Of a stretch of 50,967 nucleotides of DNA, positions 39,682-44,861 are shown piece by piece (the first letter of the stretch is position 1; every line of letters starts with the position of its first letter). The position numbers and the translations under genes are program-made. Source of the DNA: an uncultured Bacteroidota bacterium (lineage in GTDB: Bacteria > Bacteroidota > Bacteroidia > Flavobacteriales > Flavobacteriaceae). The stretch lies in assembly GCA_902574335.1 (NCBI GenBank), contig CACGNO010000004.1, positions 1 through 50,967 on the forward strand, in the 5' to 3' direction. The notes under the pieces were generated by a model. That model was given only the letters and a program-made list of their open reading frames with translations, was not told the origin of the DNA and did no database searches.

Positions 39682-40458
39682 ATGATAAAGGAAAAATTTA
39701 ATTTAGAAGGCAAGGTGGCTGTCATAACAGGGGCTTCTAAAGGAATTGGAAAAGCTATTGCTTTAGGTTTTGCTGAGTTTGGTGCTCACGTTGTTGTTAG
39801 TAGCAGGAGTGAAGAGGCTGTAAAAAATGTCGAAACCGAATTTAAATCTAAAGGTTTTTCTGTCTCATCATTAAAATGCCATGTTGGAAATAAAGAGGAC
39901 AGGATCAATTTAATTGAAACAACCTTAAAAGCTCATGGAAGGATAGATATTTTAGTTAATAATGCTGGTACAAATCCTTACTTTGGACCAATTCATAAAA
40001 TGCCCGCGGAAGCTTATCAAAAGACAATGGATATTAATTTAAACTCAGCCATTGAATTGAGTAATTTAGTATATCCAATTATGAAAAGTCAAAATTCAGG
40101 CAATATCATTCACATAAGTTCTATTGAAGGTATACATCCATCAAAATTTATGTCAGCTTATAATATTAGTAAAGCTGCATTAATTATGTTGACAAAAAAC
40201 CAATCGATAGAGTGGGGAAAATATAACATAAGGGTTAATGCAATTTGTCCTGGATATGTAAAAACTAAATTAAGTTCTGGTTTACTTGAATTTGAAGGAG
40301 CTGAAGAAAGATTAGTCAATAACGTTTCCTTGAGAAGAGCATCAAATCCAGATGAGATGGCTGGACTCGCAGTTTTCTTAGCATCCGAAGCTAGTTCTTA
40401 TGTTACAGGTACTTCTATTGTAAATGATGGAGGCCTTCTTAATTCTCCAATTTTTTAG
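39682..40458 (+). CDS. short-chain dehydrogenase/reductase, operon gene 1
   Basis: 258-residue classical SDR. NAD(P)-binding TGASKGIG is residues 16-23, NNAG follows the fourth strand (VNNAGTNPYFG), and the active-site tetrad has Y160 and K164 in SAYNISKAAL with Ser around 146. ICPGYVKT is the PG motif. It should oxidise or reduce a hydroxyl. It is first of four genes separated by 2, -1 and 4 bases, with an acyl-CoA dehydrogenase of ACAD10/11 type and an APH-type kinase, so the substrate is probably a hydroxyacyl- or ketoacyl-CoA. Confidence 0.9.
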   Translation: MIKEKFNLEGKVAVITGASKGIGKAIALGFAEFGAHVVVSSRSEEAVKNVETEFKSKGFSVSSLKCHVGNKEDRINLIETTLKAHGRIDILVNNAGTNPYFGPIHKMPAEAYQKTMDINLNSAIELSNLVYPIMKSQNSGNIIHISSIEGIHPSKFMSAYNISKAALIMLTKNQSIEWGKYNIRVNAICPGYVKTKLSSGLLEFEGAEERLVNNVSLRRASNPDEMAGLAVFLASEASSYVTGTSIVNDGGLLNSPIF

Positions 40459-40460
40459 TA

Positions 40461-41666
40461 ATGGATTTCCAATTTTCTGAAAAATCTTTAAAACTACAAA
40501 AAGAGCTTTCTGACTTTATGTTGAAATATGTTAATGCCCAAGAACAAAGTATTTTAAGTTTTCAAAAAAATAATATTTGGATTAATGATCCTAAGATTGA
40601 AGATCTAAAAATTAAAGCTAAACAAAAGGGTTTATGGAATTTATTCCTTCCTAAAGATTACAAGAAACTTAGCCCTGGTCTTTCAAATTTAGAATATGCC
40701 CCATTAGCTGAAATTATGGGAAGAATTCCCTTTTCGTCAGAAATATTTAATTGTTCTGCACCAGATACTGGTAATATGGAAGTACTAGCAAAGTATGGTT
40801 CTGAGGCTCAAAAAAACACTTGGTTAAATCCATTGATGGAAGGCGAAATAAGGTCAGCTTTTTTAATGACAGAACCTGATGTTGCTTCCTCTGACGCTAC
40901 AAATATTGAAACATCTATTGAGAAAAAAGGTGAAAATTATGTTATAAATGGTAAAAAATGGTGGTCGTCAGGAGCCATGAATCCAAATTGTAAGTTTTTT
41001 ATTGTCATGGGTAAATCTGACAAGTCAGCGGAAAGACATAAACAACAAAGTATGATCATAGTTCCAAGCGATAATCCAGGTATTAAAGTTTTAAGACCCC
41101 TTAGTGTTTTTGGTTATTATGATTCACCGCATGGTCATGCAGAAATTGAACTAAATGATGTTACAGTGCCAGCTGAAAATCTTATCCTTGGAGAGGGCAG
41201 AGGATTTGAAATAGCACAAGGCCGTTTAGGCCCTGGAAGAATCCATCATTGTATGCGTTTAATTGGAGCTGCCCAAAGATCTTTAGAATTAATGTGTGAA
41301 AGAGTTACTAAAAGAGAAACGTTTGGTAAAAAATTAAAAGATTATAGCAGTATTAGACAAGATATTGCAAAGTCAGCCTCTGAGATTGAACAAGCCAGAT
41401 TATTGACTTTCTCAGCTGCAGATCATATAGATAAATATGGTCTTAAGGGAGCTAAAGAATTGATTGCAATGATTAAAATTATTATTCCGAAAATGACATG
41501 TAAAATTGTTGATAGAGCAATTCAAGCTCATGGGGGTAAAGGAGTTTCAGACGATACTCCATTGGCTCAATTTTACATGTATGCCAGGACAATTAGATTA
41601 GCAGATGGCCCTGATGAAGTTCATATGTACCAGCTGGGAAGAAATATCATAAATAAATATTCATAA
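40461..41666 (+). CDS. ACAD10/11-type acyl-CoA dehydrogenase
   Basis: 401-residue flavoenzyme. Family motifs include FLMTEPDVASSDATN, RHKQQSMIIVP and a C-terminal HGGKGVSDDTPLAQFYMYARTIRLADGPDEVH. The last block is the signature of ACAD10/ACAD11 and LvaC-type enzymes, and D382 stands where most acyl-CoA dehydrogenases have the catalytic Glu of YEGT. In those enzymes the domain removes a phosphate from a phosphorylated hydroxyacyl-CoA instead of oxidising a saturated acyl-CoA. The flanking SDR genes and kinase match that pathway. Starts 2 bases after gene 1; its stop shares a base with gene 3. Confidence 0.92.
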   Translation: MDFQFSEKSLKLQKELSDFMLKYVNAQEQSILSFQKNNIWINDPKIEDLKIKAKQKGLWNLFLPKDYKKLSPGLSNLEYAPLAEIMGRIPFSSEIFNCSAPDTGNMEVLAKYGSEAQKNTWLNPLMEGEIRSAFLMTEPDVASSDATNIETSIEKKGENYVINGKKWWSSGAMNPNCKFFIVMGKSDKSAERHKQQSMIIVPSDNPGIKVLRPLSVFGYYDSPHGHAEIELNDVTVPAENLILGEGRGFEIAQGRLGPGRIHHCMRLIGAAQRSLELMCERVTKRETFGKKLKDYSSIRQDIAKSASEIEQARLLTFSAADHIDKYGLKGAKELIAMIKIIIPKMTCKIVDRAIQAHGGKGVSDDTPLAQFYMYARTIRLADGPDEVHMYQLGRNIINKYS

Positions 41667-42424
41667 TGTCATATAAAGATCAAGTTGTATTAATTACCGG
41701 CGGGGCATCTGGTATAGGTAAGGCTTCTGTAATTGAATTTGCAAAAGAGGGAGCAAAAGTTATTTTTGCTGATATTCAAAAAGAAAAAGGAACTAAATTG
41801 AAGGATGATCTCATCAAAAAGAAATATCATGTTGATTTTTATCACTTAGATATTTCAGAATTGAATTCTGTTGATTCACTTTTAAATTATATTGTAGATG
41901 AATACGGATGTTTAGATATAGCATTTAACAATGCGGGTGTCCAAGGTCAAATGATTCCTACTATTCAAACAACAATTGATAATTGGGATAAAGTCCTTTC
42001 TGTTAATGCAAGAAGTGTGTTTTATTGTATGAAAAAACAATTAGAAATTATGTGTTCTCAGAAAAAAGGTGTGATATTGAACAATGCATCTGCAGCAGGT
42101 CTGAGAGGATTACCAAACGGTGTTGCATACTCTGCAAGTAAGCATGCTGTTGTTGGAATGACCAAAACAGCTGCGATGGAATATGCAAAATTTGGAATTA
42201 GAATTAATGCTCTATGCCCATCATTTACAGAAACAGAAATGTTTAGCCCTGAATTATTTGATAAAATTTCAGAGGGAATTTCTGAAAAATTAAGAAAAAA
42301 AATACCTATGAAAAGATTTGCAAAAGTTGAAGAACAAGTTGGGGCTATTATGTGGCTTTGTTCAGAAAAAGCTAGCTATGTTACTGGGCAAGCTTTTGCG
42401 ATTGATGGAGGATTAACAGCTTAG
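41666..42424 (+). CDS. short-chain dehydrogenase/reductase, operon gene 3
   Basis: 252-residue SDR, distinct from gene 1. TGGASGIG is residues 11-18, NNAG is in FNNAGVQGQ, and the catalytic pair is Y155 and K159 in VAYSASKHAVVG. The C-terminus has the family SYVTGQAFAIDGG. It starts at the last base of the ACAD gene, so translation is coupled. Two SDRs around one ACAD suggest oxidation at two different positions of the same chain, for example 3- and 4-hydroxyl groups; which one it handles is not determined. Confidence 0.9.
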   Translation: MSYKDQVVLITGGASGIGKASVIEFAKEGAKVIFADIQKEKGTKLKDDLIKKKYHVDFYHLDISELNSVDSLLNYIVDEYGCLDIAFNNAGVQGQMIPTIQTTIDNWDKVLSVNARSVFYCMKKQLEIMCSQKKGVILNNASAAGLRGLPNGVAYSASKHAVVGMTKTAAMEYAKFGIRINALCPSFTETEMFSPELFDKISEGISEKLRKKIPMKRFAKVEEQVGAIMWLCSEKASYVTGQAFAIDGGLTA

Positions 42425-42428
42425 TACT

Positions 42429-43493
42429 ATGTTGCAGAAAGTTAGGGAGGGAGAAGAAATAGATAAAATAAAAATCTCAAACTTTTTTTTAAAAAATAAT
42501 TTAATATCTGACGACAAAGTAGACCCAAATATTCTGCAATATTCAAACGGATACTCTAACTTAACTTACCTCATAACGTTTAACGATAATAAATTTGTAT
42601 TAAGATGTCCGCCTAGGGGTGCTGTAAAAAGAGGACATGATATGAGCAGAGAATATAAGGTGTTGAGTAAACTTAGTAATTCATTCAATAAAGTGCCAAA
42701 AACTTACATATACAATGATGATATGAATATCATAGATCGTCCATTTTATGTGATGGAAAGAATTAGTGGTATTATTTTAACTACCAGCGAAGTAGAAAAA
42801 AGAAATATAAATACCAATGATTTTAAAAAAATTTCAAAGTCATGGCTTGAAACATTTACTGAATTACATTCATTGGATTATAAAAGAATAGGTCTTGAGG
42901 ATTTAGGCAAACCACACGGATATGTTGATAGACAAATTGAAATTTGGTCGAAACAATATCAAAATGCTAAAACTGATGAAATTCAATCTGCGGATAAAAT
43001 CATTAAGTGGCTTTATGAAAACAAACCAGTTTCAAAAAACACATCTTTGATTCATAATGATTATAAATATGACAATGTTGTTTTTAGAGATGAAAATTGG
43101 AATGAAATTAATTCAATTTTAGACTGGGAAATGTGTACAATCGGAGATCCTTTAATGGACCTGGGTACATCAATTGCCTATTGGACAATGCCAAACGACC
43201 ATCCTGTAATTTTAAATGGGCTAAAGTCCCCAACAGTATTTCAAGGCAACCCAAGTAGATCTAAAATAGTTGAATTATACTGTATGCAAACCAATACTAA
43301 AATAGATGATTTTGTATTTTATTATGTGTATGGTTTATTTAAAATAGCTGTAATTGTTCAGCAGATATTTTACAGATTTAAAAAAGGATTAACTACAAAT
43401 AAAAAGTTTAGCGAGCTCAATAAATATGCTAAAGTTCTTTGTGATACTGCATGGCAATCCATACAAAAAAAACAAATTGAAAATCTATTTTAA
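42429..43493 (+). CDS. APH-type phosphotransferase (ACAD10/11 kinase-like), operon gene 4
   Basis: 354-residue kinase-like protein in the aminoglycoside phosphotransferase family. The catalytic loop is H209-N210-D211-Y212-K213-Y214-D215-N216 and the metal motif is D232-W233-E234 in ILDWEMCTIGDP. N-terminal lobe includes SNLTYLITFNDNKFVLRCPP. In ACAD10/11 and in bacterial LvaA the same domain phosphorylates a hydroxyacyl-CoA. The preceding ACAD has the matching signature, so the two are expected to act in sequence: kinase first, then phosphate elimination. Its stop codon forms the first bases of the next promoter element. Confidence 0.92.
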   Translation: MLQKVREGEEIDKIKISNFFLKNNLISDDKVDPNILQYSNGYSNLTYLITFNDNKFVLRCPPRGAVKRGHDMSREYKVLSKLSNSFNKVPKTYIYNDDMNIIDRPFYVMERISGIILTTSEVEKRNINTNDFKKISKSWLETFTELHSLDYKRIGLEDLGKPHGYVDRQIEIWSKQYQNAKTDEIQSADKIIKWLYENKPVSKNTSLIHNDYKYDNVVFRDENWNEINSILDWEMCTIGDPLMDLGTSIAYWTMPNDHPVILNGLKSPTVFQGNPSRSKIVELYCMQTNTKIDDFVFYYVYGLFKIAVIVQQIFYRFKKGLTTNKKFSELNKYAKVLCDTAWQSIQKKQIENLF

Positions 43494-43505: not shown

Positions 43506-44861
43506 ATGCAATCTAAATTTCATATAATATTCTTATTCTTTTTTGTTTTATTCTCATGTGTTGATGATAACGAAAACTTTGTTATTGATAAAAAAGAATA
43601 TAAAAATAAGCTTGAAGGATTCTGGTTGGGACAATCAATTGCTAATTGGACTGGTATAATTACAGAAATGGATAAAATTGGAATTCCTATTAATGAAAAA
43701 GGTGAAGGATTTTATACACGTGAAAATTGGGGTGGGAAAGATGAACCCAATATTTGGTCAAACAGCTCAAATTATAATATAATAGATTTTAATCTTGCGA
43801 AATCAGATAGTATATGGGGATCAGATGACGATACAGATATAGAATACATGTATCAGGAACTTATTTTAGAAAACAATAACATAAAGTTAAGTCCTAAAGA
43901 AATTCGAGATGGTTGGTTGAAACATATTAAAGCAGAAGAACAAAATTTCCTTTGGGTATCAAATCAAAGAGCCTTTGATTTAATGAGAGAGGGGATTATG
44001 CCACCTGAAACAAGTAATCCCAAAAACAACCAATTCTATGAGATGATTGATGCACAATTAACTACCGAAATTTTTGGTCTTTATTCGCCCTTTTATCCAG
44101 ACGTAGGTCTTTCAATGGCATACTTACCAATTAGAACTGTAGCGAGAGAGAATGCTGCTTGGATTTCTGAATTTTATATCATTATGCATTCATTGGCTTC
44201 ACTGAAAACCGATCATAAAAACATAAAAGAAAAAGTTTTTTGGATGTCAAGTCAAGCACGTAAAATTTTACCAAATGCATCATATTCTGCTAAGATGTAT
44301 GATTATGTCAAATCTAAATATGAATCTGGCTTAAGCTGGGAGAAGGCAAGAGATAGTTTAAATTATAAATTTCAAATAAATAATGAACATGAATATAATT
44401 GGTCAAGAGTTGATAAAAGTTGTAATGGGTGTTTTGCTGCAGGTATAAACTTTGGTGCTAGTATTGTGAGTTTATTTTATGGTGAGGGAGATTTTAAAGA
44501 AACAATTAAAATAGCTACACTATGTGGTTGGGATTCTGATAATCCTGCTTCAACATGGGGTGGTTTACTAGGTTTTATGTACGGAAAAAAACAAATTCAA
44601 AAAATGTTCAATGTTGAACTGTCAAATAAGTACAATATACACAGGACCAGAATTGGATTTAGTGAACCAATCGACAACTTTGAATCAATGGCTGAGAAGG
44701 GCTTAAAAATTATAGATAAGGTTGTAACTGAAAAATATCTAGGAGAAATAAAAAATAATAAATGGATTTTTAGAAAGTTCCCTACAAGATACACTCGCGA
44801 TTTTGTAGATGACCCACCAGATCTAGAACCACCTGAAATCGATTTACCTGAATCTAACTAG
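43506..44861 (+). CDS. ADP-ribosylglycohydrolase-family exported lipoprotein
   Basis: 451-residue protein of the ADP-ribosylglycohydrolase (ARH) fold, with a lipoprotein signal (FSC, C18). Metal-binding motifs: D107-D108-D109-T110-D111 in WGSDDDTDIEY and D343-S-D345-N in CGWDSDNPAS, which match the two metal sites of the family. It has the usual G-W-L-G opening (EGFWLGQSIAN). ARH enzymes cleave ADP-ribose linkages or N-glycosidic nucleoside bonds; export as a lipoprotein suggests a substrate outside the cytosol. It follows the acyl-CoA operon but has a promoter element of its own. It overlaps the convergent DUF1643 gene by 18 bases. Confidence 0.85.
   Translation: MQSKFHIIFLFFFVLFSCVDDNENFVIDKKEYKNKLEGFWLGQSIANWTGIITEMDKIGIPINEKGEGFYTRENWGGKDEPNIWSNSSNYNIIDFNLAKSDSIWGSDDDTDIEYMYQELILENNNIKLSPKEIRDGWLKHIKAEEQNFLWVSNQRAFDLMREGIMPPETSNPKNNQFYEMIDAQLTTEIFGLYSPFYPDVGLSMAYLPIRTVARENAAWISEFYIIMHSLASLKTDHKNIKEKVFWMSSQARKILPNASYSAKMYDYVKSKYESGLSWEKARDSLNYKFQINNEHEYNWSRVDKSCNGCFAAGINFGASIVSLFYGEGDFKETIKIATLCGWDSDNPASTWGGLLGFMYGKKQIQKMFNVELSNKYNIHRTRIGFSEPIDNFESMAEKGLKIIDKVVTEKYLGEIKNNKWIFRKFPTRYTRDFVDDPPDLEPPEIDLPESN

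Follow-up and report, generated by a model that had tools for sequence, protein, structure and literature searches.

The closest described systems are kinase-dehydrogenase pairs that act on hydroxyacyl-CoA. The chemistry is reported as established for ACAD10 and ACAD11 and for a Burkholderia pair (PMC12440821; PMC11342911), and papers published in 2024 and 2025 assigned the ACAD10/11 reaction. In mouse ACAD11, the account in PMC12440821 gives D753 as the catalytic base, lists R631 as "general" and has R626, H634 and R637 contact the 4-phosphate, mutation of these residues causing a loss of activity; R86 and R176 are coenzyme A (CoA) contacts in the published modelling. A kinase and an acyl-CoA dehydrogenase (ACAD) of Burkholderia pseudomallei are described as replacing the ACAD10 domains in vitro (PMC11342911). 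In bacteria, a kinase, an ACAD and a short-chain dehydrogenase/reductase (SDR) also stand together in the Pseudomonas putida lva operon (LvaA-LvaE) and in a P. citronellolis cluster, as described in PMC6692424. Here we analysed a 50,967-nucleotide stretch of contig CACGNO010000004.1 (the window) from an uncultured member of the Flavobacteriaceae, whose metagenome-assembled genome (GCA_902574335.1) amounts to 922 kb and is 57% complete. Positions 39682-43493 hold four genes encoding, in order, SDR1, an ACAD, SDR2 and an APH-type kinase. We consider it probable that they form an ACAD11-type module split into two proteins and assisted by two SDRs, which would phosphorylate a hydroxyacyl-CoA, most probably at C4, and then eliminate the phosphate.

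The four genes were assigned to families by Pfam and are plus-strand open reading frames (ORFs) with gaps of 2, -1 and 4 bases, which agrees with an earlier description made from the letters alone (the sequence-only reading). The second of them (40461-41666, plus strand) encodes an ACAD10/11-LvaC-type acyl-CoA dehydrogenase homologue of 401 aa. Its best solved relatives are mouse and human ACAD11 (450-445 bits) and 4hr3 (407 bits), followed by medium-chain acyl-CoA dehydrogenase (MCAD) at 125 bits; it shares 55.9% identity with mouse ACAD11 over 381 aa and 30.1% with MCAD over 289 aa. The signature RLADGPDEVH, to which the sequence-only reading had drawn attention, begins at residue 379. Its first Asp, D382 (codon 41604-41606), replaces Glu and aligns with D753, the catalytic residue of mouse ACAD11 (Asn in the 8v3v chain). 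Codons 255-266 (41223-41258, RLGPGRIHHCMR) place R255, R260, H263 and R266 at the positions of R626, R631, H634 and R637 in the alignment with mouse ACAD11, the residues whose roles are given in PMC12440821. Across 199 genomes of the window's family (the family draw, which includes the source genome and is uncorrected for relatedness), R255, R260, H263, C264, M265, R266 and D382, and with them the HCMR motif, are identical in 22 of 22 ACADs.

The tree of ACADs agrees with the scores. Among its 112 rows, which comprise 74 of 80 named loci, 21 relatives, 9 of 14 Pseudomonadales loci and references, a branch of 3.39 with a Shimodaira-Hasegawa-like approximate likelihood-ratio support of 98 (quick method) separates the ACAD11-type proteins, including mouse and human ACAD11, from MCAD and three ordinary bacterial ACADs. 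These four long-branched rows served as the outgroup, and LvaC and ACAD10 were not among the rows. The window ACAD sits in a Bacteroidota group of eight rows (support 96), and its nearest named relatives carry Flavobacteriaceae or Saprospiraceae in their titles. Six named loci (L067, L096, L102, L109, L117 and L120) were removed by the ORF length filter and have no row, and no tree includes the plasmid loci L047-L053. As the rows of this tree and of the kinase tree were mostly fetched by likeness to the window, both say little on how common each type is. An ordinary acyl-CoA dehydrogenase was rejected on the scores and the tree: clustering with short- or medium-chain enzymes, which the sequence-only reading had named as the outcome that would speak against it, was looked for, and grouping with ACAD11 was found. 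By sequence, the protein is of the ACAD10/11 type. Two side observations concern other rows and loci. The ACAD of L066, from a contig titled as a Klebsiella pneumoniae metagenome-assembled genome, groups with Sphingomonadaceae and similar rows; the bin may be mislabelled or mixed. A third ACAD-kinase pair, flanked by SDRs, occurs in L246, L248, L249 and L229 (presumed Pseudomonas); these ACADs are 36-39% identical to the window ACAD and keep an R..HHAMR set as well as the Asp of LADGPTEVH, so the phosphate-eliminating family seems broader.

The link between the ACAD and the kinase was examined by comparison. Spacing was dropped as evidence for a functional link: 17 of the 36 same-strand neighbour pairs in the window have a gap of 5 bases or fewer, the median gap being 6.5. 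Tight packing is thus habitual here, and the evidence for a module must come from comparison. With cut-offs of E 1e-80 or better for the ACAD and E 1e-40 or better for the kinase, the ACAD was found in 22 of the 199 family-draw genomes and the kinase in the identical 22. The two genes lie on the same strand in all 22; they are direct neighbours in 17, and a single gene separates them in 5; SDR1 is near the pair in 20 of 22, and MaoC is near it in 16 of the 21 relatives (stretches of 10-16 kb). The distribution is patchy, and G149, of the same genus and 87% complete, has neither ACAD nor kinase at these cut-offs. Among the matches listed, 80 named loci were chosen by likeness to the window ACAD, and a kinase lies within 5.5 kb of the ACAD in 57 of them. 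When only named loci with full flanks are counted, the figure is 43 of 56, leaving 13; two of these 13 were checked (L054 and L063), and both genomes have a 44-46% identical kinase elsewhere. Plasmid records with an ACAD match at E 1e-80 or better number 125. In two presumed-Pseudomonas genera, a kinase 37-42% identical to that of the window is present in 25 of 25 and 58 of 59 genomes, and 289 of 298 genomes of the second genus carry an ACAD with close likeness (E 1e-140 or better) to one of Paraburkholderia. It could be argued that an ordinary ACAD and a kinase for an unrelated small molecule are mere neighbours, given how common tight spacing is in the window and that the kinase fold also resembles aminoglycoside kinases. 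The identical distribution of the two genes, their proximity in many phyla, the replacement of Glu by Asp together with the HCMR set, both invariant in 22 of 22, and the ACAD tree make this highly improbable. It is the conservation of the ACAD-kinase pair, not its spacing, that exceeds chance.

The gene order around this conserved pair varies. One relative, G004 (L026), shares the order SDR1-ACAD-SDR2-kinase with the window and has a histidine phosphatase gene after the four-gene set. G099 (L029) reads ACAD-SDR2-kinase-phosphatase without SDR1, G088 (L037) reads SDR1-ACAD-phosphatase-kinase, and G178 has ACAD-kinase without SDR1. The P. citronellolis cluster also has a histidine phosphatase gene in the description of PMC6692424, a feature shared by these relatives G004, G099 and G088. 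Longer arrangements are seen in the others. Ten of the 21 relatives have a 600-aa ACAD, SDR1, the ACAD, the kinase and then an SDR of the SDR2 group, and continue with a hydratase (7 of 10), enzymes resembling first curcumin/leukotriene reductase and then quinone oxidoreductase, and in most cases a further SDR and MaoC; seven of 21 have SDR1-MaoC-hydratase-ACAD-kinase-two ACADs or a near variant. In one of the 21, L041 (G081), a 503-aa protein that by eye resembles 4-hydroxyphenylacetate 3-hydroxylase stands between ACAD and kinase. Outside the family, at least 8 of 14 picked Pseudomonadales loci are ordered ACAD-(SDR)-kinase-phosphatase-SDR1 and 4 have no kinase near, these counts being minima as antisense ORFs displaced some real genes. 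Among seven plasmid loci, those of Deinococcus and Cytobacillus carry related sets and those of Cupriavidus and Comamonas carry the ACAD without the kinase. The gene context of named loci was cross-checked by tblastn. At five presumed-Pseudomonas kinase loci, SDR1 adjoins the kinase in all five, a phosphatase and a small protein precede it in four, and an ACAD11-type ACAD is not among the neighbours. L226, L227, L228 and L251 (presumed Pseudomonas) read histidine phosphatase, small protein (with an SCP2 domain in L251), kinase and DHRS4-type SDR, without an ACAD11-type ACAD. The four-gene set of the window is a short form of a widespread and often longer cluster; what the sequence-only reading called a compact four-gene version holds for the order in the window and G004, which is one arrangement among several. 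In the family draw, ACAD and kinase are at most one gene apart in 22 of 22 genomes, and the full order is present in 2. The likeness to the lva operon is one of gene content, with differences: the window operon has an extra DHRS4-type SDR, and counterparts of LvaA, LvaB, LvaC, LvaD and LvaE do not stand together, as the intergenic gaps are too small for a gene of LvaB size and the operon lacks a ligase. A search for P. putida lvaA and lvaC found other kinase and ACAD types and none that was lva-like in order (G585, G681 and G696, with two ACAD matches, were left out).

Several genes found in the longer clusters are located elsewhere in the source genome, of which about half is missing, so that absences mean little. 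On contig C13, hydratase-type and thiolase genes stand next to an ACAD of the ordinary type. On contig C15 (L247), a ligase, MaoC and a hydratase occur together with a carboxyltransferase, a TonB receptor, a curcumin-reductase-like enzyme and an ACAD of the 600-aa type that is truncated at the end of the contig. This second cluster also has a nitronate monooxygenase, and matches to nitronate monooxygenase lie near the module in L073, L078 and L079. Relatives of the C15 600-aa ACAD (65-75% identical) and of the C15 reductase (55-59%) are found inside the cluster in ten relatives, and a 53% identical relative of the C15 ligase stands beside the module in L045. The C15 reductase reaches 360 of 440 and 207 of 580 cut-off bits for the curcumin/leukotriene-reductase families, and the carboxyltransferase stays far under its nearest NCBIfam cut-off (252 of 999 bits). 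The sequence-only reading had noted that the operon lacks a ligase, which is correct, and had suggested on that ground that the substrate may enter as a CoA ester; this argument is weak because an acyl-CoA ligase lies on C15 beside orthologues of the relatives' operon genes.

The same genes bear on what the pathway may be for. The module could act as proposed and yet serve repair or detoxification of oxidised lipid, that is, of acids derived from 4-hydroxyalkenals or oxo-lipids, instead of growth, a reading whose chemistry overlaps with ours. Curcumin/leukotriene-reductase-type enzymes act on enones, and such an enzyme is in the cluster of 10 of 21 relatives with an orthologue on C15; mammalian ACAD10/11 also handle 4-hydroxy acids. 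However, in one subgroup 5 of 7 genomes have TonB-dependent receptor genes close to the module, and C15 has one too (identity established by Pfam for the C15 receptor), which suggests uptake of an external substrate. On balance we regard a detoxification role as rather unlikely.

The last gene of the set (42429-43493, plus strand) encodes an APH-family kinase of 354 aa, which we propose to be a hydroxyacyl-CoA kinase. The catalytic loop HNDYKYDN begins at residue 209 (codons 209-216, 43053-43076) and DWE at 232, as the sequence-only reading had it, and D211 and N216 correspond by position to D220 and N225 of ACAD11. Its matches among solved structures by phmmer at E 0.001 or better are four distinct sequences only, namely 9o56, 3dxp and two ACAD11 entries; a search of open-licence literature found no paper on PDB 9o56. 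The catalytic D211 and N216, the metal-binding D232, the Arg-Glu of helix C and R168, which aligns with ACAD11 R176, do not vary in any of the 28 aligned kinases, which come from both clades of the kinase tree. In that tree (92 rows, built without LvaA), clade I (support 100/100) holds the ACAD11 kinase domain, 3dxp and Burkholderia; its sister, clade II (100/97), holds the window kinase, other Bacteroidota, 9o56 and presumed Pseudomonas rows. The L120 kinase, from a species related to B. pseudomallei, shares 42% identity with the ACAD11 kinase domain and 29% with the window kinase, and being closer to ACAD11 it puts the tested Burkholderia kinase in clade I, as far as that kinase can be placed. 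An AlphaFold2 model of the window kinase built from 28 sequences has a mean predicted local distance difference test score of 94.3. A Foldseek search with this model ranks 3dxp first (2.7e-23) and 25-hydroxy steroid kinase (9fsg/9ft5) second to fourth (best 1.6e-14), and 9o56 is absent from the best 50 rows listed. In the profile search of solved structures, 25-hydroxy steroid kinase scores 90 bits vs 377-499 for 3dxp, 9o56 and ACAD11, where the profile includes clade I members and so favours them.

Several of the observations weigh against an ACAD11-type module at this locus, and most of them concern the kinase. It is 31% identical to the ACAD11 kinase domain and lies outside the clade that holds the ACAD11 and Burkholderia kinases, in a tree that gave warnings on long branches (ACAD11) and on the odd letter make-up of the window row. 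We know of no measured substrate for clade II, unless LvaA belongs there. In the Foldseek search, ACAD11 (D753N) ranks only 16th (1.4e-9), below several aminoglycoside kinases. R74, the Arg beside the Glu of helix C, is the same in all 28 aligned kinases, but its ACAD11 partner counts as position 84, an uncertain match to the published contact R86. As to the cluster, the exact four-gene order occurs in 2 of 22 family-draw genomes, a kinase of this kind is missing from the 5.5 kb around the ACAD in 23 of the 80 named loci, and the window operon, unlike other clusters, has no LvaB-size, SCP2 or histidine-phosphatase gene. In comparison with mammalian ACAD11/ACAD10 (PDB 8v3u/8v3v/2wbi), the ACAD domain is 56% identical and carries the published catalytic and phosphate-contact residues, and the kinase is of the same superfamily; the window operon differs in encoding as two separate proteins what animals have fused in ACAD11, an organisation also reported for fungi (PMC8919083), in the sister clade of its kinase and in its two SDRs. 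The sequence-only reading is borne out in that a suitable kinase stands beside the ACAD, and is corrected as to the clade, which is sister to that of the ACAD11 kinase. Because of its separate placement in clade II, we file the kinase only as one that would work like an ACAD10/11-type 4-hydroxyacyl-CoA kinase.

A rival reading has the same chemistry on another hydroxyl, such as that of a tertiary or branched (isoprenoid, sterol-like) or a 5-hydroxy acyl-CoA, in place of a straight-chain 4-hydroxy fatty acyl-CoA; the sequence-only reading had offered 4-hydroxy, branched hydroxy and lactone-derived acids as candidate substrates. The 25-hydroxy steroid kinase, an APH-like lipid-alcohol kinase of similar fold that by its PDB titles phosphorylates a side-chain alcohol, outranks ACAD11 in the fold search, and the clade of the window kinase differs from that of the ACAD11 and Burkholderia kinases. 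A carboxyltransferase and a hydratase lie near the ligase on C15, a combination that occurs in some branched-chain pathways, and carboxyltransferase matches are near the module in L048, L056, L062 and L128. On the other side, the window kinase alone reaches ACAD11 and not 25-hydroxy steroid kinase by phmmer at E 0.001; the latter is distant in sequence, with its 90 bits in a profile that leans to clade I, and its substrate is a steroid. The phosphate-binding residues of the ACAD are those placed for a 4-phosphate, and the C15 carboxyltransferase reaches only about a quarter of its cut-off. Another hydroxyl appears unlikely, and C4 remains the position we favour for the ACAD11-type module.

The first gene (39682-40458, plus strand) encodes SDR1, a DHRS4-type SDR of 258 aa with the Pfam domain adh_short_C2. 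Over 244 aa, SDR1 and human DHRS4 share 43% identity; for SDR2 the figure is 28%. Among solved structures, SDR1 alone scores 203 bits with human and 200 bits with pig DHRS4, then 162 with tropinone reductase and worm DHRS4, and a profile of 16 SDR1 proteins gives 305 bits for each of human and pig DHRS4, 260 for the worm protein and from 254 down for others. The best NCBIfam model, PRK07035, stays under its cut-off (270 of 373 bits). Three animal DHRS4 proteins fall inside the SDR1 clade (42 rows, 100/97). The second SDR tree had three other reference SDRs and operon SDRs as outgroup and gave long-branch warnings; plant SDRa was not a row, L100_dm1334, L030_pb7 and L068_d3069 were left out for their long branches, and the partial SDR1 of L043 is in no SDR tree. 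The CH[VI] motif, encoded in the window as C66-H67 (39877-39882), is shared by 39 of 39 SDR1-clade rows and by human DHRS4, and by none of the 44 other SDR rows (one of which has a gap there); worm DHRS4 reads GHI at this site. By sequence, SDR1 belongs to the DHRS4 clade. At the end of beta2, the 39 SDR1 rows read [SA]SR (SSR in the window), and 15 SDR2-group rows have Asp, as does SDR2 of the window (41666-42424, plus strand), a classical SDR by Pfam, 252 aa in length, with FADIQK at this point. As a rule, an SSR-type ending goes with NADP(H) and Asp with NAD(H). This suggests that SDR1 is of NADP(H) type, which by analogy to DHRS4 would reduce a carbonyl. The role of SDR2 is uncertain and may be the oxidation of a 3-hydroxyacyl or other hydroxyl.

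Then, how might the four proteins work in concert? SDR1, as a DHRS4-family NADPH-type reductase, would convert an oxo group to a hydroxyl, or equilibrate both, so that 4-oxoacyl becomes 4-hydroxyacyl. The kinase would then phosphorylate the hydroxyl of the acyl-CoA, most likely at C4, and the ACAD, by means of D382 and FAD, would eliminate the phosphate held by R255, H263 and R266 to yield a 2-enoyl-CoA. This product could enter ordinary beta-oxidation, for which the hydratase-type and thiolase genes on C13 would serve, and SDR2, of NAD type, may oxidise a downstream hydroxyl. The gene content, the subfamilies of ACAD and SDR1, the key residues and the co-occurrence are shown by the sequences. 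From them we infer the activities, the C4 position and the co-transcription of the four genes; the two SDR roles are the weakest steps. The logic of phosphorylating and then eliminating, which the sequence-only reading had proposed, is supported by homology to the published reaction.

The DHRS4 clade connects the cluster with eukaryotes. DHRS4 and ACAD11 both bear peroxisomal signals, according to PMC8919083, and fungal kinase and ACAD are given there as separate peroxisomal proteins. Plant SDRa (IBR1) groups with DHRS4, and its mechanism is termed unknown in PMC10288848, with carbonyl reduction proposed. IBR1, ACAD-like IBR3, hydratase IBR10 and ECH2 are described as enzymes specific to indole-3-butyric acid conversion (PMC6616111). 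SDR1 lies in the clade of animal DHRS4, has 43% identity to the human protein, and shares the CH[VI] and NP motifs and the NADP(H)-type residue; it is bacterial and in an operon, the animal and plant enzymes are single peroxisomal proteins, and the comparison was made with animal sequences only. IBR3 is an APH-ACAD fusion and ECH2 has a MaoC-like fold. The Arabidopsis IBR1-IBR3-IBR10-ECH2 set, with its DHRS4-type SDR, ACAD-like protein and two hydratases, parallels SDR1, the ACAD (plus kinase), enoyl-CoA hydratase (ECH) and MaoC of the relatives' clusters. The match of IBR10 and ECH2 is at family level only, ECH and MaoC are outside the window operon, and the plant substrate has no 4-hydroxyl. 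As plants use a DHRS4-like, an ACAD-like and two hydratase enzymes in one peroxisomal pathway, the cluster may be a bacterial counterpart. More tentatively, and with more doubt than confidence, we suggest that it represents the ancestral operonic form of a peroxisomal pathway scattered in eukaryotes (DHRS4 and ACAD11; IBR1/IBR3/IBR10/ECH2), in which DHRS4/IBR1 would be an NADPH reductase making 4-hydroxyacyl(-CoA) for ACAD11/IBR3. Against this stands the usual view of IBR1 as the dehydrogenase step of a plain beta-oxidation round, as put in PMC8133310. In the open-licence literature searched, no paper was found that links DHRS4/ACAD11, the plant IBR set and such bacterial clusters. DHRS4 and ACAD11 are named together in five papers. 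Among 16 papers naming at least three of five IBR/ACAD names, ACAD10/11 came up only in one yeast genome paper, which has IBR3 present and IBR1 and IBR10 not, and DHRS and IBR3 go unmentioned in the two ACAD10/11 papers.

The genes that flank the operon were considered as further parts. An ADP-ribosylglycohydrolase-like gene (43506-44861, plus strand) begins 12 bases past the kinase gene, and a DoxX-like gene on the same strand lies 32 bases ahead of SDR1. Both were rejected, as the ORFs in the stretches from the 21 relatives gave no match (E 1e-10) to either. The N terminus of the ADP-ribosylglycohydrolase-family protein is lipoprotein-like by eye, and its gene is perhaps co-transcribed with the operon here. 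Recent transfer was also set aside on base composition, as the operon has 32.2% GC and the window 30.3%, which is little contrast.

The phosphorylation/elimination reaction itself is known and already published; what is new is its occurrence with separate proteins, a sister-clade kinase and a DHRS4-type partner. The ACAD half is very common in some bacteria and travels with a second kinase clade, and a DHRS4-type reductase is its frequent companion. The link to DHRS4 is the part likely to surprise specialists, and it is testable with four small bacterial proteins that can be expressed separately. If true, it would provide a natural substrate for DHRS4/IBR1, enzymes of unsettled role.

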